Below the pieces are notes generated by a model. It did no database searches. It was not told the DNA's origin and saw nothing but the letters and a program-made list of their open reading frames with translations. 29,010 nt of DNA from a virus, in IMG/VR virus record IMGVR_UViG_3300030329_004017, positions 1-29,010 of that record. One strand, given 5' to 3'. Made by a program: the position numbers and the translations under genes. Position 1 is the first letter of the stretch. The number at the start of each line of letters is the position of its first letter. Of this stretch, positions 3,178-17,725 are shown piece by piece.

Positions 3178-3678
3178 CTAGAACGGAATTTCGTCATCCG
3201 CTGGTGCTTCTGATTCGGCCGGTGGAGGTGGAGCACTCTTCTTAGATGGTGCTCTGTTCTGTTTGAAGGCACTAGAGAACAGATTATCTAGCTGCCTCAT
3301 CTCTTTCTTCTCCAGGCTTTCGTATTTGCTACCAGTCGATATGTGCCAGCGTTCCTTCAGCTCTCCTTCGTACTCTTCATGAGTAACGTACATTTCTACG
3401 TCTTGGCCTGCGAAGACTTGAGCCTCAGGATGCGACGGGTCCAAAGTGCTAACACGGTCACCAGTGAAGCCAAGAGCCCTTAGGTTATCAACCGTAAAGC
3501 TAACCGTCTTGCTAGTGAGGTATGTGTAGCAAGTCCTGTCTTCAGCATCGACAGGAACACCGCGCATATTCAGCGGATAGAAGTGAAGCACAAAGCATGG
3601 AGTGCCTTTGCTTCCCGACTTAGTCATCCCTTGCCCTGTGACTCTGCACAGATAAGTGCCTGGTTCGTATGTTGTCAT
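3178..3678 (-). CDS. Single-stranded DNA-binding protein (SSB-like)
   Basis: 166 aa. The N-terminal ~115 residues look like a beta-rich OB-type domain (YEPGTYLCRVTGQGM, CFVLHFYPLNMRG, YVTHEEYEGELKERWHI). A Pro/Ser/Ala-rich linker follows, and the protein ends in DDEIPF, the acidic tip by which SSB proteins recruit partner enzymes. Its start overlaps the stop of the ATPase gene by ATGA, so the two are probably translationally coupled. With the nuclease and Sak4-like ATPase it forms a phage recombination set: end resection, strand annealing and ssDNA protection. The tip is the decisive evidence; the OB assignment is inferred from pattern and position. Confidence 0.8.
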   Translation of the reverse strand: MTTYEPGTYLCRVTGQGMTKSGSKGTPCFVLHFYPLNMRGVPVDAEDRTCYTYLTSKTVSFTVDNLRALGFTGDRVSTLDPSHPEAQVFAGQDVEMYVTHEEYEGELKERWHISTGSKYESLEKKEMRQLDNLFSSAFKQNRAPSKKSAPPPPAESEAPADDEIPF

Positions 3679-4499
3679 TTGTCTTTGCCTTGCTTAATTG
3701 TGTTGATGAAGTTTGACCAACCTTCCGCGCCTGATTCACCTAGCTCGAATTCCTCAGGCATACCGTGACGGTTCTTAGCGTCCCAAGCTGGGGTCTTAGT
3801 CGTAAAAGCAACACGGTCTAATCCGCCTTTGCCTTTCGCGCGTAAGCCTTCAGCATCGATAGCTACAGGGGTGTGAAAGAAGAGGACGATATCTGCCCAC
3901 TTATGAGTAGCACCCCAAAGCTTCTTGTGTAGCTCTGGTGTATATCGGTCGTAGTCCTCACCTTCAGGATTATGAAAGGGCTTCACGTGACTATGACACA
4001 AGCAGATAACAGCCATCTTCTGACGCTCTCTCAGCTCATCGAGTGCAGCTAAGAACTGTCGCCAATCACCAACAGATGACTCAGGACCTTGTCCATACGC
4101 TAAGAAGGCTTTCATCGAGCCTTTGAAGTCTCGTCGGCATACGTGATTGAAACAGAGTGCTTCAAGTCCGTTAATCGTATCGATGATCAGCGTCTTGTAA
4201 TCCGTAGGTGTGTTTGTCAGCTCTTCTATAATCGCTAACAACTCGCACCACTCTTTGACTTCTGGGAAGTGTGGCGTTTCGTCTAGCCTTCCTGAATCTA
4301 TCAGAGTCTCTAGACCTGTCTCACCATCACTCATAATCACTAACGGCTTGGGTGCTGATGCGCCAAAGCTCGTCTTACCAACTCCCTCCCCACCATGAAC
4401 TATCAGTCGCTGTGGTAGGTTCCTCCCTTTGCTGACTACGTTGGACAGGGCTGATATCGCCGTTGTCCGCGAAGCTGTCTGTGCTTTCGCCGTTGCCAT
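3675..4499 (-). CDS. Sak4-like RecA-fold ATPase, putative recombinase
   Basis: 274 aa. Walker A is GGEGVGKTS (residues 36-44) and Walker B is TLIIDT (103-108). HSHVKPFHNPEG and YTPELHKKLWG follow, in the layout of phage Sak4 / AAA_24 proteins, which anneal single strands or load recombination partners. I start at 4499 because AAGGAGATCCCAG precedes that ATG; an upstream in-frame start at 4523 has no comparable site. The first 125 bases overlap the end of the nuclease gene in another frame. Downstream coupling to the SSB-like gene supports a joint function in recombination or recombination-dependent replication. Confidence 0.85.
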   Translation of the reverse strand: MATAKAQTASRTTAISALSNVVSKGRNLPQRLIVHGGEGVGKTSFGASAPKPLVIMSDGETGLETLIDSGRLDETPHFPEVKEWCELLAIIEELTNTPTDYKTLIIDTINGLEALCFNHVCRRDFKGSMKAFLAYGQGPESSVGDWRQFLAALDELRERQKMAVICLCHSHVKPFHNPEGEDYDRYTPELHKKLWGATHKWADIVLFFHTPVAIDAEGLRAKGKGGLDRVAFTTKTPAWDAKNRHGMPEEFELGESGAEGWSNFINTIKQGKDK

Positions 4500-5544
4500 C
4501 TGGGATCTCCTTAAAATGGTCAAACCAAGCTCTTAATGCTTCGTGCATCAATGAACCGAAATGCAAAGCTTCAGAATCCTCTTGATTCTGTTTCCTGATT
4601 CCTAACTCGTATCTGTAGTAGTGTTTCCTCCTGCATGTCTGATAGGTGCTAATTCGTGAATTGGTTAATAGGTTTCTACCGTCGTCTTCTGTATCGAGCT
4701 CGGCATGAACCTTATCGACATTCTCCCAACGATCGCTATCCGGCTCGTCATGTCCACTACAGATGCCCAGGTAAGCACAGGGACGACCATAGGACATACA
4801 AGCTGCTGAGTTACGGAAGTTTCTACCCGTCCTCTGTGAGTCTCTGATAGCCTGTGAAACGTGCCACAGCTCATAGGCCCATTCCACAATCTCATGGTCC
4901 AGACGTGGAATCATCTTTCGTCTGAAATACCACTCAGGTCGCGTGCAACAGTCTTGGGCTAATCTGGCGGTAAACATCCAGGGAGTCTCCCTGAACTCAT
5001 CAGAAGCCAATCTGGCATATTCTGAGTCACTGATAGCCCATCCGTAGTATTGATGCTTGTCATCCACCTCTCGCATGGTGCCTAGCTTTATCTCGCCTGT
5101 CTTGTTCGTCCTAGGCACTGTCTTAGGCTTGATGTTGGGCTTCCTGATAACGTCGTAGACCGTACCAGATAACTTAATGCCTCTCTGCCAATGACTCAGC
5201 ACATACATGCTGACCTGGGAATCAATATCAAGCCGATTCCAATATGTAGAGTCACCGTGAATCTGGTCACTGGTGGTCTTGTGCTCTAGCAGGAAATGCT
5301 GGTTATCTCGAGCAATGATTCCGTCATAGACACCAGCCTGCTCAAAGGTCTTAGACGGTCTACACGTATCAGGGTTGACGATAGGAAGCTTGAATTGCTC
5401 TTCAGTGGTCAGAGTGGTATAGCCGGCATCATGCCATCGATAGTGATAGCCACTCATCAGCCCCTTGGCTTTAGCCTTATCGATAGGATTCGCCTCATAG
5501 GAATCTATCGTAGTCCATGACTTCTTCAGTGCTTCAAGGTTCAT
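4375..5544 (-). CDS. Cas4/AddB-like PD-(D/E)XK nuclease with permuted motif order
   Basis: 389 aa. Nuclease motifs are GVYDGI (Asp74), LLEHKT (Glu87, Lys89) and QVSMY (Gln110, Tyr114). A cysteine triplet follows, C249MSYGRPC256AYLGIC262. Only then comes the segment that normally opens this family: LLTNSRISTYQTCRRKHYY (Cys304) and FGSLMHEAL (His334). All parts of an Fe-S nuclease are present, but the usual N-terminal part is at the C-terminus, and the protein begins where that part would normally lead (ALKKSWTTIDSYEANPIDKA). The start overlaps the upstream gene, so no N-terminal module is hidden there. The last ~42 residues overlap the ATPase gene and look like filler. Expected role: DNA end resection feeding the ATPase and SSB. 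Confidence 0.85.
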   Translation of the reverse strand: MNLEALKKSWTTIDSYEANPIDKAKAKGLMSGYHYRWHDAGYTTLTTEEQFKLPIVNPDTCRPSKTFEQAGVYDGIIARDNQHFLLEHKTTSDQIHGDSTYWNRLDIDSQVSMYVLSHWQRGIKLSGTVYDVIRKPNIKPKTVPRTNKTGEIKLGTMREVDDKHQYYGWAISDSEYARLASDEFRETPWMFTARLAQDCCTRPEWYFRRKMIPRLDHEIVEWAYELWHVSQAIRDSQRTGRNFRNSAACMSYGRPCAYLGICSGHDEPDSDRWENVDKVHAELDTEDDGRNLLTNSRISTYQTCRRKHYYRYELGIRKQNQEDSEALHFGSLMHEALRAWFDHFKEIPDGNGESTDSFADNGDISPVQRSQQREEPTTATDSSWWGGSW

Positions 5545-6114: not shown

Positions 6115-6288
6115 TTATCGACCACCTTCGGCCTCGCTCTCTTTGCCCTTTAGTTCGCCTCTAAGTATCTCTGTCTTCCTGTCGGCTTTAATCGAAAGTG
6201 TGACCCGGTTAGCTGACACCTTCTGTACGTAGACTTCGGAATCACCAATGTAAAGCTTCTCACCCTTCTTGCGCGTCAGTACCAACAT
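6115..6288 (-). CDS. csrA: CsrA-family RNA-binding translational regulator
   Basis: 57 aa, the usual length. It opens MLVLTRKKGEKLYIGD, matching the canonical CsrA strand 1 (Leu4, Thr5, Arg6, where CsrA contacts RNA), then VYVQKVSANRVTLSIKAD, then TEILRGEL, matching the second RNA-contact strand with its Arg (Arg43) and Glu. CsrA is a dimer that binds GGA motifs in message leaders and blocks or changes translation. The start at 6288 has AAAGGA eight bases upstream, itself a GGA site, so self-repression is possible. AACGAGGATGT at the stop codon resembles the CsrA site consensus. It overlaps the previous gene by 29 bases and is in the recombination operon. Finding it in a phage is unusual. Confidence 0.93.
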   Translation of the reverse strand: MLVLTRKKGEKLYIGDSEVYVQKVSANRVTLSIKADRKTEILRGELKGKESEAEGGR

Positions 6289-10032: not shown

Positions 10033-10368
10033 TCACGTGTCCGCCACGTTTTCTTTGGCGGTTATGCAGTCCCAGCAGTTACGTTCGCGACGCACACGCA
10101 CCCTTGGCACTTTCCGCCTAGTCGTTTCCGCGTCGTGTAAATTGCAGTGGTGGACTGGCAAAGGCTTATTCACACCGCAGCCGCACTGCTTAGCGGGTAT
10201 TTCGTCTACGACATCGCCTAAGTGCGGACAGTTGTCTAGCAACTCTACATACTGTAGTGACCTACCAGTGGTGCCGTCTTTGTGCACGATAAATCCACAC
10301 TTGCAGACAAACTTGCCCTTTGGCTTTCGCCGGACAGCAAAACCACATTCTGGACAAAGCCAAGCCAT
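10033..10368 (-). CDS. Cysteine-rich zinc-ribbon protein, 111 aa
   Basis: Opens with a zinc-ribbon pattern, CPECGF...CKCGF (two CxxC/CxC knuckles), followed by a second Cys/His cluster (NCPHLG, CGCG, HHCNLH) and a final NCWDC. Such rubredoxin-like modules bind zinc and often mediate protein or nucleic-acid contacts. Its ATG at 10368 overlaps the upstream adhesin gene's stop. Lying at the end of the tail operon, it may be a tail-tip or assembly factor; the function is not known. Confidence 0.7.
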   Translation of the reverse strand: MAWLCPECGFAVRRKPKGKFVCKCGFIVHKDGTTGRSLQYVELLDNCPHLGDVVDEIPAKQCGCGVNKPLPVHHCNLHDAETTRRKVPRVRVRRERNCWDCITAKENVADT

Positions 10369-11513
10369 TAGAGGGACGTTATCTTTGCTACGAGATTAGT
10401 GTGGTCGCACGGACCCGGATCGCCGCTTCCCACGCACAGTCCATCTATAGTGTCCACCTGTTCCTCATCCCATGCGAGGCAATCCACGTCCTGGTTTGTG
10501 AAAACCTTTTTCAGCCGCACACCATACCCTGCACCTTCAGGGGTTCCGGAAAGGGGGAAATTGACGTATAGCGTTGTGTCGTTAGTAATTGGGTCGTGGA
10601 ACACTTCCACGGCTACGCACGACGTGCTACCAGTCCCGCAAGGGAATCCAAAAAATGCACTGTTCCAAACGCAACCCTGGTCGAATGCACACACGCACGG
10701 ATTGGGGTTTGTCCCAAAAGGGATATAAGACAACACGTAGGTTCCGTTTATGTCTTCGCAGCAGCTATGGGCCGTATCAGCACCTGATATCTCTACCTCC
10801 AAGAAATTGGGTGCTTCGTTGTCCCCACAGTAGAGGCAGTTAGCTGGTGGACAATCAGGACAGCCAGACACTTCGGAATCCATCGATGATCTACGGCCCT
10901 GCCAATCATCGACGGTTAGGTTGCCCGCTGTTACCGCAGCCGTGCCACAGCCAAACCCCTTTTTTTCATGGGTAGTAAGCTGCACACGATCAGATCGTAC
11001 GCCGTATTCATTACCGAAGTAACGGACTGTTGTTTCTACGTAGCCATAATCACTAAGTGGACTCTCGGGAACCATTGACAGGCACATGTCTACTTCAGTG
11101 CCTAGCGGTATGCCTATCGTCTTTGCGTAGCCGTGTTCGGTATCTGTTCCAGCATCATGCTTGTATAGCTTGAGTGTTGCGTTACTGCTGCCAAACTCCA
11201 GCTGTCCGTAGTAGTAGTTATCAGACGCTTCACCTAATACAGCGCCAGCAATCAGCCGCGCCTGGACTCCGTCTTCATTGCCATAGACCTTGGCATAGAC
11301 AACATGACCGTATTCATCTGGCTGTGTTCCATCGTCGTAGTTGCTATAGCAGATCGTGTCGTCCTGACGCAGATCCGCTTTTTCGTCCTTGATATCAGCG
11401 TCGCCAGCGTATTCCGTCCAGCCTGCACCAAGACTATCACCGTCCGCCCTATCGAATAGATCGCGGTGGATAATGCAGTTACTGCAACAGGGAAACCAGC
11501 CTTTGCTTCCCAT
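10368..11513 (-). CDS. Tail tip / receptor-binding candidate, cysteine-rich
   Basis: 381 aa. After MGSKGWFPCCSNCIIHRDLF comes DRADGDSLGAGWTEYAGDAD, the typical opening of a laminin-G/concanavalin-like beta-sandwich, extending to about residue 205. The C-terminal part is rich in paired cysteines (CPDCPPANCLYCGD, CCEDINGTYVLSY, CVCAFDQGCVW), suggesting disulfide or metal-stabilised repeats. In other planctomycete-associated phages similar beta-sandwich proteins sit at the end of the tail cluster. Position after the tail hub supports a host-recognition role; this is inference from order and fold. Confidence 0.6.
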   Translation of the reverse strand: MGSKGWFPCCSNCIIHRDLFDRADGDSLGAGWTEYAGDADIKDEKADLRQDDTICYSNYDDGTQPDEYGHVVYAKVYGNEDGVQARLIAGAVLGEASDNYYYGQLEFGSSNATLKLYKHDAGTDTEHGYAKTIGIPLGTEVDMCLSMVPESPLSDYGYVETTVRYFGNEYGVRSDRVQLTTHEKKGFGCGTAAVTAGNLTVDDWQGRRSSMDSEVSGCPDCPPANCLYCGDNEAPNFLEVEISGADTAHSCCEDINGTYVLSYIPFGTNPNPCVCAFDQGCVWNSAFFGFPCGTGSTSCVAVEVFHDPITNDTTLYVNFPLSGTPEGAGYGVRLKKVFTNQDVDCLAWDEEQVDTIDGLCVGSGDPGPCDHTNLVAKITSL

Positions 11514-12098
11514 CTACGGACACTCCGCTTGGATGACGATATAGCGGCCACCTTGCCGCACTACTAGCATTTCTTCGTTGTTTTTGACCAGGCTAAAGGT
11601 GCCTAGCGGATCGTGCACCGTAACGTCTGTCGTTGTGTCGTTTTCGAATATGTCTTTCAGGTCACAGCTGCACTGGCCCGCGGTAGTCGCACCGAAGTCT
11701 TCTTTGGCTATAGCGTGCCAAAGCGTTGGAATATCCATAATGAAGACGTATGTTTTGCCGTCAGCTCCATCTATTTCAAAGATGGGAAGGACTGTGTCTT
11801 CCAAAACGTTTGTTCCGTCAATCGTGCGACCGACAAACTGAACACCTGAATCACGGTCTGTGTCTGTTACGCCTTGGCTTCCTGCTGTCCTTGTGTATGC
11901 ACTGTCAACAGTAACCATTTGGAATGTATTGGAGTAGCCAGTTGGATAAGTTCCACTCGTCGTTGTCTTGGCGTGCCTGAGTCGCACCTTTGGAGTGAGA
12001 TTAGTAGATCTTTGATTGGCGCGGTTCAACTGCTTCAGATGCTCTATTTCACGCTCTAAATACTGTACGCGACGCTCTAGCGGTAGGTTAGTTGTCAT
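11514..12098 (-). CDS. Tail-associated protein with N-terminal coiled coil
   Basis: 194 aa. A leucine-zipper-like coil (RRVQYLEREIEHLKQLNRAN) would trimerise the protein. It is followed by a beta-rich region (MVTVDSAYTRTAGSQGV, FEIDGADGKTYVFIM, CSCDLKDIFENDTTTDVTVH) and ends in IQAECP. Coil plus beta domain is typical of tail fibre or tip subunits. It starts at 12098 overlapping the hub stop by ATGA and ends next to the adhesin start. Function inferred from architecture and location. Confidence 0.6.
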   Translation of the reverse strand: MTTNLPLERRVQYLEREIEHLKQLNRANQRSTNLTPKVRLRHAKTTTSGTYPTGYSNTFQMVTVDSAYTRTAGSQGVTDTDRDSGVQFVGRTIDGTNVLEDTVLPIFEIDGADGKTYVFIMDIPTLWHAIAKEDFGATTAGQCSCDLKDIFENDTTTDVTVHDPLGTFSLVKNNEEMLVVRQGGRYIVIQAECP

Positions 12099-14365
12099 AC
12101 GCCAAAAAACCTCACAGGGTCCAAGTCAGCATATTGCGTGGCGTATGTAATCCTAGGCACTCCAGGCTGTGCATCAGCTGAAATAGGTGACTCAATCTGT
12201 ATCGATGTAACTACCGTATTAGCGGTGATTTGGTCCGTGCCGGCTTCCACCGTCGTAACCATGTCACCTACACGTATTCCAACTTCGTTTGAATCCACTG
12301 TTTCGCGAAATGGTTTGTAGACACTGGTGGTCCATTCCAGTGCTATTCTTTCGTCCTTGTACCATTCGTAGGCAACCCTAGCTAAATCCTGCATTGGCTG
12401 TCGATCGTCGCGTATGTAGCCGCCGCTGGTCGTGCGGATTAGCGTGCCATCTGTCCCATCTACTCCGACAACAGTTTCTTTAACCACCCAGTCCTGGCGG
12501 TATCCGTCGCCCACGTTGATTACCAATGTCCTGGCCGCGTCTACGCCAGTCGGGAATTTAACGTTGTTGTATTCGTCGTGCGGGTAGTGCGCTTCGCAGT
12601 ATCGTTCGTCTTCTACAGCAATCGTGAAGATGAAGTCTTGCCAATCCCAACGGTCGATAGCCCAATCAGAAGAGTCTACAGGCGAGAATTCATTCTTGGC
12701 TATTTTATGTTGTGGTGCTCCAGTTACCTGAACACGAATAGATCTTGAGTCAGGTTCTACGATTACTGAGCCAGACCAGTTCCTATCATCACCTGTACCA
12801 GCGTAGTAAGCGCTTCTAACAATCCCGACATTTTCGACGTGCACGTAAAAGTTTGTGTCGTCGAGAAGTGGCGTCAGCACTATAGGCGGCAACTCCTGGT
12901 ACGGTGCATCACCGGTCGGCACAACATGCGTTTCGTCTTTGATATTTGTTCCGCTATAGTCGTGGTGCGACAGCAGCGGAAGAGTAGGCAGCAATTTGAT
13001 TCCTGGTGGATACGCCCTATATGGTGCGTCTTCGGCCAACCCGCCGTCTCCTAGAGGGAATACGACATTTGCTTCCGCTAGCCCATTTTGGCCGTCGTTG
13101 GCTTTCAGGTTCCAGTTGTCCACCAGGACAAATCGTGCATAGACATCGCGCAGCTTATCGACTGCTCTAGCTGATGCGTTTCTCTTCTGTCTTTCGTCAA
13201 CGTTAGCTGCACCAGGATAGGCAGGACTAGAAGCGGTAGATGCGCCGTTGTTGTAGTCCGTCTGGTCTGCGCTGGTCCATCCTGACGTGATTGTGCTATC
13301 GTCATAGCTTACGGTAAAGCAACTGCGACGCTTGGCACCGCGGACGGTCACGACATCCACAACGTCCACGGAGCTCTTTTGGACGACTACATTGGCAGAC
13401 GCATCGTTTGCAAGAACAAGCTTCTTTAGGTTTTGATTGCCGCTGTATGTATCGAGCCACGGTTCCAGTACTAAGTCGGAGTCAAGAAAGCTGCACGGGT
13501 GAACATATACCGCGTTGTCTTCCACCCGTATGTCGTAGCCCAGCAAACGCTGCCTGGCCAACACCGTATTAAGCACCTCTAGGGTCATGGCCCCTTCGCG
13601 GGTCACAACAGGGCGGTCGAAGTCAGGAATAACCGTTTTGTCCGTTGGGTCCAATGCCATCTGCACGCGAGGCGTCTGGTACTCGACAGCTTCGCTAAAC
13701 GGGTCCGATCGATACTCCTCAAGGTCTTCTGGCATGGGTGCATCGAATTCCAGCAGGTAGTTCACTATTTCCAAGGAATCCCAATAGCCACCAGTTAGGT
13801 CGTCAACTGTATCGGCACCACCGTCGAACGGTATAGCATTGTCTCGTCGGGAGGCTGCGTCCGCCATGTTGCCGGCACCGTTCGCATTGAATGCAAACGC
13901 GGCGTTGCTCACCTGCAGTTTGTTGGTTTGGTCAACCCAAAAGCTTCGCCTGATCGTGTGAATATCAAGCAGTCTTTCCAACCCGAAGCAGACAAACTCC
14001 TGCACGCCTGTCGCGATCCCGCCAACGTCACTGCCGCCGCGACTGTCGCCTTCGATTTCGATGCCACCGTACCAGTCGTTGGTGCTGGTAAAGTCTGCGT
14101 GGGAATAGGATATCTTTACGTAATAGCGGCTTAGGCTTTTCCGCGCGACGTTGACGAAGATACCGTCGCCTGGCCGCTGCCCAACGCCATATCGCCAGAC
14201 TAGCGTTGCTGTAGGGATTTCTGGCGACAGGGACCACTTGCATAGAGTGCAGTAAAGGTGCGGCTGCTCTACCCAGTCATCAGCCCAAGCAGCTTTAGCG
14301 TACACAGTCTGCAAAGGCACGTGCACGGAATTGCTAGTTGTCGCGAAGGATATCGCATCAGCCAC
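12095..14365 (-). CDS. Large tail hub / tip protein
   Basis: 756 aa, the largest product of the tail cluster, with a GTG start at 14365 preceded by AGGTGCC. It starts with beta-rich sequence (LYCTLCKWSLSPEIPTATLV, DGIFVNVARKSLSRYYVKIS) and has a central section (LEVLNTVLARQRLLGYDIRV) like phage tail-hub proteins. Its length and place after the tape measure and two small tail genes suggest the baseplate hub or central tail tip that receives the tape measure. No peptidase or lysozyme motif was seen. Adhesin genes follow. Confidence 0.65.
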   Translation of the reverse strand: MADAISFATTSNSVHVPLQTVYAKAAWADDWVEQPHLYCTLCKWSLSPEIPTATLVWRYGVGQRPGDGIFVNVARKSLSRYYVKISYSHADFTSTNDWYGGIEIEGDSRGGSDVGGIATGVQEFVCFGLERLLDIHTIRRSFWVDQTNKLQVSNAAFAFNANGAGNMADAASRRDNAIPFDGGADTVDDLTGGYWDSLEIVNYLLEFDAPMPEDLEEYRSDPFSEAVEYQTPRVQMALDPTDKTVIPDFDRPVVTREGAMTLEVLNTVLARQRLLGYDIRVEDNAVYVHPCSFLDSDLVLEPWLDTYSGNQNLKKLVLANDASANVVVQKSSVDVVDVVTVRGAKRRSCFTVSYDDSTITSGWTSADQTDYNNGASTASSPAYPGAANVDERQKRNASARAVDKLRDVYARFVLVDNWNLKANDGQNGLAEANVVFPLGDGGLAEDAPYRAYPPGIKLLPTLPLLSHHDYSGTNIKDETHVVPTGDAPYQELPPIVLTPLLDDTNFYVHVENVGIVRSAYYAGTGDDRNWSGSVIVEPDSRSIRVQVTGAPQHKIAKNEFSPVDSSDWAIDRWDWQDFIFTIAVEDERYCEAHYPHDEYNNVKFPTGVDAARTLVINVGDGYRQDWVVKETVVGVDGTDGTLIRTTSGGYIRDDRQPMQDLARVAYEWYKDERIALEWTTSVYKPFRETVDSNEVGIRVGDMVTTVEAGTDQITANTVVTSIQIESPISADAQPGVPRITYATQYADLDPVRFFGV

Positions 14366-14775
14366 TACGGCACCTGAATTTCACTCACGTGTACTTTGAC
14401 GGCGATACTGGTGGCAGTCTTGCCTATGCCAAGAATCGTCACGTAATCATTGGTAGCCAGGTCCGCTTCTGGTGCAACGCCACCAGCCGTGCCGGATACC
14501 ACGTAGATTTCGCCCACGGTGGCACTGGTAACCGTCAAATCGCCTAGCGTTACGTAGGACACTGGCTGGCCCGCTTTGGGTGCTGAATTCACCGCAATTC
14601 CGACTGCAGCAGCTGTTGCAGCAGTGTTGTCCGCGTCCGCCAGCTTCACCTTGTTGCTGTCGGTTGAATCCAGATAGACGGACTGGCCGGCCAAGATAGC
14701 TTCGCCGGCCGTACCAGCGTTAACGCCAGTTGCAGGTGGCACCACGTCGGAAGCGGTAATTGTCAAATCTGCCAT
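14365..14775 (-). CDS. Small beta-rich structural protein, 136 aa
   Basis: MADLTITASDVVPPATGVNA then repeating alanine/valine-rich strands (AILAGQSVYLD, KVKLADADNTAA, VGIAVNSAPKAGQPVSY, YVVSGTAGGVAPEADL). The 'AGQSVYLDSTDSNKVKLAD ... GIAVNSA' pattern resembles trimeric capsid-decoration or DUF2190-like proteins, although here it is in the tail cluster. It could be a tail decoration or tip subunit. It shares the stop/start junction with the large hub gene. Confidence 0.6.
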   Translation of the reverse strand: MADLTITASDVVPPATGVNAGTAGEAILAGQSVYLDSTDSNKVKLADADNTAATAAAVGIAVNSAPKAGQPVSYVTLGDLTVTSATVGEIYVVSGTAGGVAPEADLATNDYVTILGIGKTATSIAVKVHVSEIQVP

Positions 14776-14785
14776 TACTCAAGTC

Positions 14786-15178
14786 CTATAGGATTACTGG
14801 CTGTAGAGTCCATTCAGCGCGTAGCAAAGAGAATCCGTTATTCAGTCCACCGCGCCCGATGGTTAGCCGTTTTATTTCAATGACTCGCACACCCAAAACG
14901 ATGTATTTGGCTGCGTTGATAAATACACTGCTCCACTGAATCTGGACAGGGTTTCCACCAACTAGCCCCTCATAGTTTCTGTAAATGTTTTCGCTGGTCA
15001 CGTTGTTTGCAAAGTCAACAACGCTCTGAACCGTAAATGGCATCCCCTTAATTCCTGTACGCCACACGGCTACATCGTCTACACCAGCGCGAGACTCTAC
15101 CTCTACCGTTTGCCTAGGTGCCTCTGGTGGCTGACTCAGACTGATGAACTGATACGGACCTATGAAGTAGTTAGCCAT
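14786..15178 (-). CDS. Tail protein, 130 aa, distal-tail candidate
   Basis: MANYFIGPYQFISLSQPPEA, then VESRAGVDDVAVWRTGIKGM and a beta-rich remainder with GGNPVQIQWSSVFINAAKYI. It follows the tape measure directly (TAATG overlap at 15178), where the distal tail protein is usually encoded. Its strand-rich sequence fits a ring-forming tail subunit, but I recognise no specific family. Confidence 0.55.
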   Translation of the reverse strand: MANYFIGPYQFISLSQPPEAPRQTVEVESRAGVDDVAVWRTGIKGMPFTVQSVVDFANNVTSENIYRNYEGLVGGNPVQIQWSSVFINAAKYIVLGVRVIEIKRLTIGRGGLNNGFSLLRAEWTLQPVIL

Positions 15179-16830
15179 TATTTTTCTAGGTGTCTTCCGC
15201 GGGCTGCGTTGGCATTGCCCTTGTTAACGTTCTGCTGCCCATTAAGAAGCCTTTTTTCATCTGCTGCATTCTGTCTCAGTTGAACAAGTATCTCTTCTAA
15301 GAGCTCGGCTGACCGTCTTTCAGCATGACTCATTTCATCTGGAGTTTTCTTTCTATCTGCTGGTGGTGGACCTCCAAAAAAGTCGCCTTCCAAGCCACTA
15401 AACTTCTGAGGGTCTTGGGCGATTGTTATTTGCCTTAGTCTCTTCCTGACCATCCTCAGAAGACCTGATGTCTTGTCACCAGTAAAAGCGTTAACTGTGT
15501 CCTGTAGGTCCTGGTCTGTCTTTCCAGCTGCGCCCTTTATCCCCCTGTCTCTGAGTTTCTTCAATCCTTCAAGAACCAGCCTTCTTGACGAAGCCCTAAT
15601 TGCACCAACTTCATCTGTCAGGTCAATCTTCTGCAGCAGCCTATCTGTCTGCGATTCCCTTACGCCAGTTCTCAATGGGGCAGTGGCTGTCCTGCCTTCT
15701 GCAAATCTTCGCTCAGCAATCTTTGGGTCGAATCTGATATCTTTCATCACCTCAGCAAACTTCTTCATTCCCTCCTTGGAGGTAATCCCCTGTATGAATT
15801 CTTTGGTCTGTCCAAGCTGCGCCTTGGAGAAAAATGCTTCCCTGAGGAATGGGTCTTGGAGGAGCTTAATCCTTCCCTGAATGGTTCCAGGGTCCTGAGG
15901 TCTAACAAGTCCATCGTCATGATCCCCGGTAATCCCCTTTCTTTCCATTGCATCCAATGTGCGCTGGTCTAACTTGAATCCTTTAGTAACGAACTCGTTT
16001 AATGCTCCAGCAAAATTACCAGAAAACCTTCTAGACACTTCACCTGTTGTGTCTGTTCCAACACGGGACAAGCGAGCGAAGAAAGTGGAGGCAAACCGGG
16101 CTACCTCTTTCTTGTCCTGGTTCTTTACCGTCTCTGTCCAGCGAGCGATTACCCGCGGTAGGTTCTCGGCAACTTTAGCAATATTTTCGACTGACGAAGC
16201 CTGTTGTGTGGCTGCAATCATGCCGCCCGTTGCCAAAGCAGATTTATCACCAGACTTGTTCATTACCGCAACAACAGCCTTAGCCATCTCTGGCGCATCT
16301 TGCGGCCTGTTACGGGTCAGTTCTCCAGCAAACCTTCCGGCTTGAACAGCTTGCCTAGGTGTAGCTCCAGCTGATATAGCTACGCCTAGCAATCGCTCCA
16401 GCACCTTGGCATCAGGGAATGCTGTGATCTTCGCTAGTGGTGCAGCCTGAGCCCTGACAAATTCCTTTTGTTTCTTCGTCAGCGATACGATGTTGTCTAG
16501 TTGCTCTTCCTGAGCTGCTGCCATCGCGCGTTGCTCGTCAGCTGCTGCTTTGTCTGCTGCTCTCCTTTCCTTTACCGCATCACCATAAATACGAAGGGCT
16601 GCAGTAGCTGCATCCCAAGCAGAACGAATACCAAATATTGCACCAGCTGCCTGCATCGCACCTTGCTTAACCGAAGCAGTTAGTCGTCGCTGTGCTTGCT
16701 GGCTCTTTTTGGAAGCACTCGTCATCTGCTGCTGCTGCTGCAACAACTTGGTGTTGGCCTTCATGAGCTTGGCGTAATCACGCTCTAGCTCTCGAAAGTC
16801 AGACGTAGCTTTCCACTTGGCAACACCCAT
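15178..16830 (-). CDS. Tail tape measure protein
   Basis: 550 aa, mostly helical: an N-terminal coiled coil (FRELERDYAKLMKANTKLLQ, then five glutamines), a short hydrophobic stretch AAGAIFGIRSAWDAATAAL, and long Ala/Lys/Arg/Glu helices. Tape-measure length sets tail length at roughly 1.5 A per residue, so about 80 nm would be expected if uncleaved. No peptidoglycan-hydrolase motif is visible. The ATG shares its A with the stop of the frameshifted chaperone frame, the usual order of chaperone then tape measure. The glutamine run is encoded by a CTG/CAG repeat. Confidence 0.8.
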   Translation of the reverse strand: MGVAKWKATSDFRELERDYAKLMKANTKLLQQQQQMTSASKKSQQAQRRLTASVKQGAMQAAGAIFGIRSAWDAATAALRIYGDAVKERRAADKAAADEQRAMAAAQEEQLDNIVSLTKKQKEFVRAQAAPLAKITAFPDAKVLERLLGVAISAGATPRQAVQAGRFAGELTRNRPQDAPEMAKAVVAVMNKSGDKSALATGGMIAATQQASSVENIAKVAENLPRVIARWTETVKNQDKKEVARFASTFFARLSRVGTDTTGEVSRRFSGNFAGALNEFVTKGFKLDQRTLDAMERKGITGDHDDGLVRPQDPGTIQGRIKLLQDPFLREAFFSKAQLGQTKEFIQGITSKEGMKKFAEVMKDIRFDPKIAERRFAEGRTATAPLRTGVRESQTDRLLQKIDLTDEVGAIRASSRRLVLEGLKKLRDRGIKGAAGKTDQDLQDTVNAFTGDKTSGLLRMVRKRLRQITIAQDPQKFSGLEGDFFGGPPPADRKKTPDEMSHAERRSAELLEEILVQLRQNAADEKRLLNGQQNVNKGNANAARGRHLEK

Positions 16831-17725
16831 TAGATGCTCTCAAAATCCATATAAGCAGCTATGGCTAATTCACCGCGGCTGGGTTTGATTCCGCTAAGCC
16901 GTCCAGTTCTCCAAGACTGGATTTCGATGATTCTTCGGCTGAGGGGGACTTCTCCGGCGTCTCTTTTTTTTTGAATGATTCAAACTCTTTGAAGTCGATC
17001 AATGCGCGGAGAATTCGACCAGCTATCCCAGGCTCTATCCTTATCAGTTCATGCTCACGCCAAAGAACACTGAGCTCTTCAAATGAAACCCTGTAGTTAA
17101 CAGCTAAACATTCAATAGCTGTATCAACCAGCCACTGGGTTATTTGGTCGTCAGGGATCGGGAATGGCTTGTCTTCAACGTCTGTATCATGCTGCTCAAA
17201 GAAGTCCCAAACTATCGCTGACTTCTCCCACAGTGCGCGATGCTCATTGACAACCTCAGGGACTACCTTTCCGCTCTCATCAAAGTCATAAGCGTAGGAC
17301 AACGTCCCGCATGGCTCGTTGTCCATTCGGGCAACAGGAACCTGCCAAGACTTTTCAGCGTATCCACAGTCAATCATGTAGCCAGGGACCGCGGTTGTCT
17401 TCTTCATGTCTTCAATCGTTGGTGGGTCATTAATCCACCAGCCGATATAAAACAAAGGCTGACCATTCCTCTTCTGCTTCGATGGCTTATAGACCTGATA
17501 CTCAGGATGGTAGCCCAGCTTCTTCGGTAGCTTCTCTGGATAGTTGGAATCTTTAGGCCATAACCAAGACCCTATTTTGTGGTCAGGTCCTGAATCGACT
17601 TTGGCAACAATGTAATCGTCTCCAACCTTAGAAACATCACTCAAAGCCGTACCCAAGCCATACTCAGAAAATGCTTCTGATGATATGCCTTGGACGTTGG
17701 GGATAAAGTAAAACAGCCCGCTCAT
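16830..17725 (-). CDS. Tail assembly chaperone, -1 frameshift extended product (GT-like)
   Basis: The reading frame of 16865-17725 contains nine As (16964-16972) read as three AAA lysine codons (residues 252-254). Slipping back one base there gives a coding-like tail of 44 residues: RDAGEVPLSRRIIEIQSWRT then GRLSGIKPSRGELAIAAYMD and FESI. It ends in a TAA that shares its A with the tape-measure ATG. The result is 298 aa instead of 286. Many tailed phages make a short and a frameshifted tail chaperone right before the tape measure; lambda G and GT is the model. The site A AAA AAA G is a good -1 slip sequence. Frameshifting itself is inferred. Confidence 0.65.
16865..17725 (-). CDS. Tail assembly chaperone candidate, unshifted product (G-like)
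   Basis: 286 aa. Early region MSGLFYFIPNVQGISSEAFS, then WLWPKDSNYPEKLPKKLGYH and WWINDPPTIEDM; the second half has helical sequence (DDQITQWLVDTAIECLAVNY, FEELSVLWREHELIRIEPGI) and a Ser/Glu-rich disordered tail after the lysine run. It is the last gene before the tape measure, the normal place for tail chaperones, and it carries an A9 slip site near its end. It starts at 17725 with AGGAGACGACGAAGA and overlaps the 61-aa gene by ATGA. It is longer than lambda G, so identity rests on position and the slip site. Confidence 0.6.
   Translation of the reverse strand: MSGLFYFIPNVQGISSEAFSEYGLGTALSDVSKVGDDYIVAKVDSGPDHKIGSWLWPKDSNYPEKLPKKLGYHPEYQVYKPSKQKRNGQPLFYIGWWINDPPTIEDMKKTTAVPGYMIDCGYAEKSWQVPVARMDNEPCGTLSYAYDFDESGKVVPEVVNEHRALWEKSAIVWDFFEQHDTDVEDKPFPIPDDQITQWLVDTAIECLAVNYRVSFEELSVLWREHELIRIEPGIAGRILRALIDFKEFESFKKKETPEKSPSAEESSKSSLGELDGLAESNPAAVN

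Follow-up and report, generated by a model that had tools for sequence, protein, structure and literature searches.

Nucleases of the Cas4 and AddB type carry one cysteine before the nuclease core and three near the C-terminus, and Cas4 is a 5′–3′ exonuclease of single-stranded DNA (PMC3466216). The same cysteine arrangement is present in 3L0A, a zinc-binding homologue discussed in that work. In phages the type is represented by the canonical 'Cas4 family exonuclease' of PHROG 1218 (PF12705, PDDEXK_1) found, for example, in Corynebacterium, Streptomyces, Rhodococcus and Serratia phages. For the present analysis the family was split into three segments: N, with a cysteine and the HEAL histidine; C1, from GYxARW to the strand of the catalytic Asp; and C2, from E-x-K to the last cysteine. 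In canonical relatives the N segment is N-terminal, as it also is in Cas4 and AddB, C1 comes after the HEAL helix and C2 is C-terminal (order N-C1-C2). The C-terminal nuclease domain of AddB, from Bacillus AddAB, belongs to a helicase-nuclease subunit of ~1150 aa with the canonical order. In the lambda Red, RecET and HK620 Sak4 + SSB modules, the genes for a nuclease, an annealing protein and an SSB lie side by side, and Sak4 carries out ATP-dependent annealing that is stimulated by its SSB (PMC5928155).

The window, meaning the whole stretch of DNA that was analysed, is a 29,010-base IMG/VR virus record with portal, protease, head and terminase genes. The product of one of its genes is very probably an Fe-S PD-(D/E)XK exonuclease that belongs to the Cas4/AddB-like type of phages (PHROG 1218) and has undergone natural circular permutation. 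It has the same segments and motifs as the PHROG 1218 exonucleases, which are ordered N-C1-C2, but in the order C1-C2-N. With AddB it shares the putative character of an Fe-S 'staple' nuclease, the core fold and a match to AddB 787-834, whereas it is a stand-alone, permuted domain. Four conserved cysteines and a RecB-type nuclease core are shared with Cas4 and solo-Cas4; unlike these, the window protein is rotated, no CRISPR link was seen and the similarity is weak (Pfam Cas4, E 0.17; NCBIfam cas4, E 0.004), with the curated Cas4 model TIGR00372 not being passed (16.9 bits against a cut-off of 65). The difference from the lambda Red, RecET and HK620 modules is that the window nuclease lies in the Fe-S Cas4/AddB-like branch and is permuted.

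Rotated order of the nuclease segments

The gene and its parts are listed in Table 1. In a BLAST comparison with the canonical relative L038 (loci are referred to by L numbers), which shares 37% identity with the window protein and 24-26% with the PHROG 1218 exonucleases of cultured phages, residues 19-287 aligned with residues 69-319 of L038 (37% identity, E 1e-55), and a second HSP that crossed the first placed residues 291-340 on residues 3-50 (48% identity, E 9e-12). Crossing pieces were likewise obtained with PHROG 1218, residues 22-269 falling on profile positions 96-336 and the C-terminal part on 3-58. When a canonical profile of 332 positions, made from 20 canonical relatives, was used, residues 6-287 matched positions 63-330 (E 3e-68) and residues 291-345 matched positions 5-57 (E 9e-16). 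As the protein covers positions 63-330 and then 5-57, almost every canonical position is present exactly once. The match of the window protein to PF12705 (Pfam E 2.5e-14) was above the cut-off but in two crossing pieces, whereas that of L038 was collinear (8-293 on 5-246); annotation tools that assume a motif order score permuted proteins only in part. The moved segment (residues 294-343) was recognised by NCBIfam models of AddB (787-834, on residues 296-343) and Cas4 (2-44). The cysteines accordingly run three first and then one, and only ~8 residues separate the conserved blocks VHAEL and LLTNSR at the junction. A PDB sequence search with the window protein gave no match, nor did a first viral scan that used this protein alone.

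Table 1. Positions of the nuclease gene, its segments and its neighbours in the window, and of the CP2 relatives on their own contigs.
Feature	Position	Strand	Remarks
Permuted PD-(D/E)XK exonuclease ORF (putative Fe-S), order C1-C2-N (CP1)	4375..5544	-	389 aa, ATG start
Segment C1, residues 14-80, AKxLMxGYxxRW helix to catalytic Asp74 strand	5305..5505	-	Segment HMMs
Segment C2, residues 82-268: E87-H-K89, Q110-Y114, putative Fe-S cysteines 249, 256, 262	4741..5301	-	
Junction, residues 269-292: old C-terminus (WENVDKVHAEL) fused to old N-terminus (LLTNSR)	4669..4740	-	
Segment N, residues 293-345: LLTNSR..C304..HFGSLMHEAL (His334)	4510..4668	-	AddB and Cas4 model matches
Predicted disordered C-terminal tail, residues 346-389, encoded within the sak4 overlap	4375..4509	-	pLDDT under 50 for 354-389
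Sak4-like ssDNA annealing protein	3675..4499	-	AAA_24 E 1.9e-32, PHROG 124 E 2.5e-32; ATG at 4499, GGAG upstream
SSB-like protein	3178..3678	-	35% identical to Tunturi_2 protein annotated SSB; SSB-type tail DDEIPF
CP2 members	L033:1256-2149, L041:621-1727, L201:2980-4149, L206:2989-3891; L039:3163-3987		L033, L041, L201 and L206, viral contigs; L039, Myxococcales MAG, cut at contig end

A reading of this DNA made from its sequence only had named the residues of the motifs and the cysteines and had described their order as reversed. All of the named residues were found at their positions in the ORF, and the crossing matches to PHROG 1218, the canonical profile and L038 bear out the rotation. 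Its statement that the protein starts exactly at the sequence that normally follows HEAL is correct give or take a few residues (the moved piece ends at profile position 57 and the protein starts at 63), though not exactly.

Relatives, segment orders and cut points

A tblastn search of GenBank phages matched two records and no others, those of Tunturi_1 and Tunturi_2, which are cultured phages of Acidobacteriota. Their proteins are 40-42% identical to the window protein and collinear with it, and annotated Sak4 and SSB genes follow within two genes of the nuclease. Scans of IMG/VR gave dozens of independent contigs with the order seen in the window. The natural circular permutation that the sequence-only reading had proposed is shared by two phage isolates and many contigs, a recurrence that excludes chance. 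Segment order was determined with one HMM per segment, the order of matches being read in every ORF of every locus. Among the 138 unique ORFs that were classified, 75 were canonical (N-C1-C2), 59 had the order of the window (C1-C2-N, termed CP1) and 4 had a third order (C2-N-C1, termed CP2); a fifth CP2 member, L206, came from a later scan. The window's order is thus not that of the whole family, which includes 75 unpermuted homologues. The marks of circular permutation were all observed: nearly all canonical positions present once, rotated, with the termini fused and in several independent genomes.

Three types of cut were distinguished. In the window clade the cut lies at about canonical profile positions 58-63. 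In L190 it lies one helix further along (profile start 75, end 79), and in CP2 it falls at 140-145, within the hairpin that links the strand of the catalytic Asp to the E-x-K strand. CP2 proteins therefore reach E-H-K within a few residues of their N-terminus and end just past the Asp. In all three, nearly every canonical position is present once. The rotation is not a one-off but has been conserved within a phage lineage, and other permutations with other cut points exist within the family.

Duplicated segments were seen in none of the classified ORFs, and double-length intermediates in none of ~220 loci. No convincing remnant of a lost N segment upstream, or of C1 or C2 downstream, of the permuted genes was found; the best upstream match (L101, E 9e-4) is most likely the divergent C1 of the L101 protein itself.

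L190 (L190:335-1417) and L191 appear to represent a recent, independent permutation of the CP1 type with its own cut point. Over 271 core residues, L190 is 68% identical to the canonical L017, and no other pair is as well suited as L190/L017 to a study of the way in which permutation came about. With close canonical and permuted pairs such as this, both the duplication-trimming route and the permutability conferred by a metal 'staple' become directly testable.

Number of independent permutations

On a tree of 123 rows inferred from de-rotated sequences, the CP1 order required three changes, and a single origin of CP1 was found in 0 of 200 bootstrap trees. L190 grouped with L017 and three other canonical rows (99/99). 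When L206 was included, the four viral CP2 rows formed one clade (99/93) within canonical rows, and L039, which has a long branch and masked bases, was placed elsewhere. AU tests rejected the window clade and L190 as one clade (p 0.0033), gave a borderline result for a clade of all CP1 rows (p 0.065) and did not reject the window clade with clade II (p 0.275), clade II with L190 (p 0.62) or CP2 as one clade (p 0.40), all of these p values leaning low because the tests were named after the tree had been seen. An insertion common to L190, L017 and clade II was absent from all 35 window-clade rows; it is present as well in one CP2 row and in some of the remaining canonical rows.

It was considered whether a single ancestral permutation was followed by reversions to the canonical order. 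The AU results for all CP1 rows and for the window clade with clade II are compatible with this, and the canonical rows L086, L106 and L111, which adjoin the window clade in the tree, could be read as revertants. However, L190 and the window clade were rejected as one clade, the cut of L190 (75/79 versus 58-63) and its core identity to canonical L017 set it apart, and CP2 has a wholly different cut and nests among canonical rows. The AddB and Cas4 outgroups are, furthermore, canonical (PMC3466216). A single origin with reversions is thus regarded as improbable, and the safe statement is that at least three independent permutations occurred: in the window lineage, in L190 and in CP2.

Conserved residues and predicted structure

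The residues named for the window protein are conserved among its relatives. In the 48 CP1 rows, Asp74 and Glu/Asp87 were each present in 47, and Lys89, Gln110, Tyr114, Cys249, Cys256, Cys262, Cys304 and His334 were each present in all 48. All four cysteines, the N-segment His and Asp74 were kept in 4/4 CP2 rows. In the canonical rows (n=71), the cysteines were kept save for one exception at the Cys249 position, the N-segment His was found in 70 and Asp74 in all, and Lys89, Gln110 and Tyr114 were kept in every row of every order. All four cysteines and, rare exceptions aside, the catalytic residues are therefore retained across all orders.

The structure of the window protein was predicted with AlphaFold2 from 33 CP1 rows, the two Tunturi rows being left out. 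The model had a pLDDT of 89.7 and a pTM of 0.85, with residues 291-340 at ~91-98 and residues 354-389 below 50. A pTM of 0.85 with 9% of the chain disordered suggests that the displaced segment is packed on the core, so that the docking on which the proposed permutation depends is predicted, as judged from AlphaFold2 confidence. The tail (residues 346-389) is outside the nuclease fold and is a disordered read-through that runs over the first 125 nt of sak4, the next gene downstream. For the CP2 protein L033, modelled from four rows, confidence was only moderate (pLDDT 70.5), and no conclusion is drawn from that model. Structural comparison of the core with the PDB gave AdnA (Z 8.9, 3.5 Å, 176 residues) and the Cas4-family ACE1 (Z 7.8), and residues 1-268 of the model were matched to AddB 852-1138 (Z about 7.5-7.6), the displaced segment staying unaligned in this sequential alignment. 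The predicted core fold thus appears to be shared with Fe-S 'staple' nucleases, the Z scores being middling and the sequence profiles in support. In BFVD, the uncultured-phage protein A0A6J5NSY1 matched over 363 columns (TM 0.71/0.80), as would be expected of another permuted member; most other matches were only partial.

The position of the N segment at the chain end, next to a disordered tail, might also suggest a partial-gene fusion, in which the C-terminal segment is left over from a second nuclease and is either idle or docked on a neighbouring subunit by domain swapping; a domain swap would look no different in sequence. The core, however, would be without its fourth cysteine and its His unless this segment were used, and each of the two is present in 48/48 CP1 rows. 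Neither the ORFs nor their flanks contain a further copy of any segment, and the AlphaFold2 monomer gives the segment a pLDDT of ~95 (pTM 0.85). A fusion of this kind is considered quite improbable, and the segment is read here as the rotated N segment of the same nuclease.

One CP1 member, L037 (L037:4890-6032, from a Pirellulales/Planctomycetota MAG), keeps all of its cysteines and is without Asp74, the acidic residue at 87 and His88. It is perhaps an inactive copy, and not every permuted copy need be active. The absence of Asp74 and the acidic residue in L037 would also suit a changed function of the permuted protein, for example a structural or regulatory one without nuclease activity. Against this, the D, E/D-x-K, Q-x3-Y and His motifs are present in 47-48 of the 48 CP1 rows and the setting among recombination genes is unchanged; very little weight is accordingly given to such a change, and the permuted proteins are treated as nucleases.

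Genomic setting and overlap with sak4

In the window the nuclease, Sak4 and SSB genes are adjacent on one strand, and the same synteny is present in Tunturi. An automatic test for Sak4 downstream on the same strand was passed by 45/48 CP1, 69/71 canonical and 3/4 CP2 loci. The CP1 exceptions were the window itself (stored in reverse orientation, and with Sak4 confirmed directly downstream), L069, which stops at the contig end, and L037, which is without a Sak4 match; the CP2 locus that failed is at a contig end. The constancy of the Sak4 neighbour across orders indicates that permutation took place in situ or that the permuted genes moved together with the module.

Although the window is from an uncultured IMG/VR record, an artefact of assembly or binning, through a chimeric join or a repeat put together wrongly, which the sequence-only reading had held open, has a negligible chance of having produced the rotated gene, since two complete genomes of cultured phages and dozens of contigs from different samples show the same order at ~40% identity, the flanking genes are ordinary, and CP2 was recovered from four separate viral contigs and one MAG.

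The window nuclease ORF overlaps sak4 by 125 nt (4375-4499), with its stop codon located within the Walker A codons of sak4. Overlaps of at least 60 nt with the sak4 start were found in 11/34 measurable CP1 genes and 2/63 canonical genes (Fisher p 1e-4; the rows are related, two more CP1 rows with an alternative start were uncounted and the cut-off was picked post hoc). Such an overlap fits the loss of the core of a second gene copy together with its stop codon, as might occur in duplication and trimming.

Proposed function and origin of the permutation

The protein is most likely a Cas4/AddB-like Fe-S PD-(D/E)XK 5′–3′ exonuclease that supplies the SSB + Sak4 annealing module. It would resect DNA ends in the 5′–3′ direction, the resulting 3′ single strands being passed to the neighbouring SSB and Sak4 for annealing. 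Ligation of a [4Fe-4S] cluster and 5′–3′ polarity are assigned by analogy, and the same arrangement of cysteines is known from the zinc-binding homologue 3L0A.

In the proposed rearrangement, the N-terminal 'staple', comprising the first Fe-S cysteine and the active-site His helix, would have been moved behind the three C-terminal cysteines, and the permuted chain would start in the loop past the HEAL helix. The join of ~8 residues may leave the fold, the cluster and the active site intact because the Fe-S cluster holds the old termini together, and this meeting of the termini at the cluster would explain why the fold tolerates permutation. The gene itself may have arisen by tandem duplication in place, after which the first N segment and the second core would have been lost. 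This route, which the sequence-only reading had offered in the form of tandem duplication and trimming, fits the permuted genes and is unproven, neither double-length intermediates nor remnants having been found.

A single catalytic domain is rarely permuted in nature, and repeated independent permutation within one enzyme family at the same locus is rarer still. Circular permutation in other parts of the PD-(D/E)XK superfamily is mentioned in reviews. Type I restriction S subunits show natural circular permutation with several cut points in one family (PMC3874165); these are internally repeated DNA-recognition proteins, whereas here a single catalytic domain is concerned, with the active site split by the cut in CP2. 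On balance, we lean slightly towards the nuclease locus being a natural hot spot, with at least three independent in-place events at three cut points (about 58-63, 75-79 and 140-145 on the canonical profile), because the Fe-S staple would pin the termini and the phage's own nuclease-Sak4 annealing system would both make and resolve the tandem copies serving as intermediates.

No earlier report of a permuted member was found in the literature searched, and the terms searched did not bring up the gene in the Tunturi paper. A search for biochemistry on any family member likewise found none. As far as can be told, the function is of a known kind, and the architecture and its recurrence are new. 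The ready-made permuted variants may serve the study of recombineering nucleases.

Other genes of the window

Several long ORFs without a PHROG match (e.g. 756 aa and 550 aa) occupy positions 10368-17725 on the minus strand, where tail genes would be expected. On the same strand, the window also carries a phage-encoded CsrA-like RNA-binding regulator (6115-6288; Pfam CsrA, E 4e-14) and an ArdA antirestriction protein (185-700; Pfam E 2e-39).
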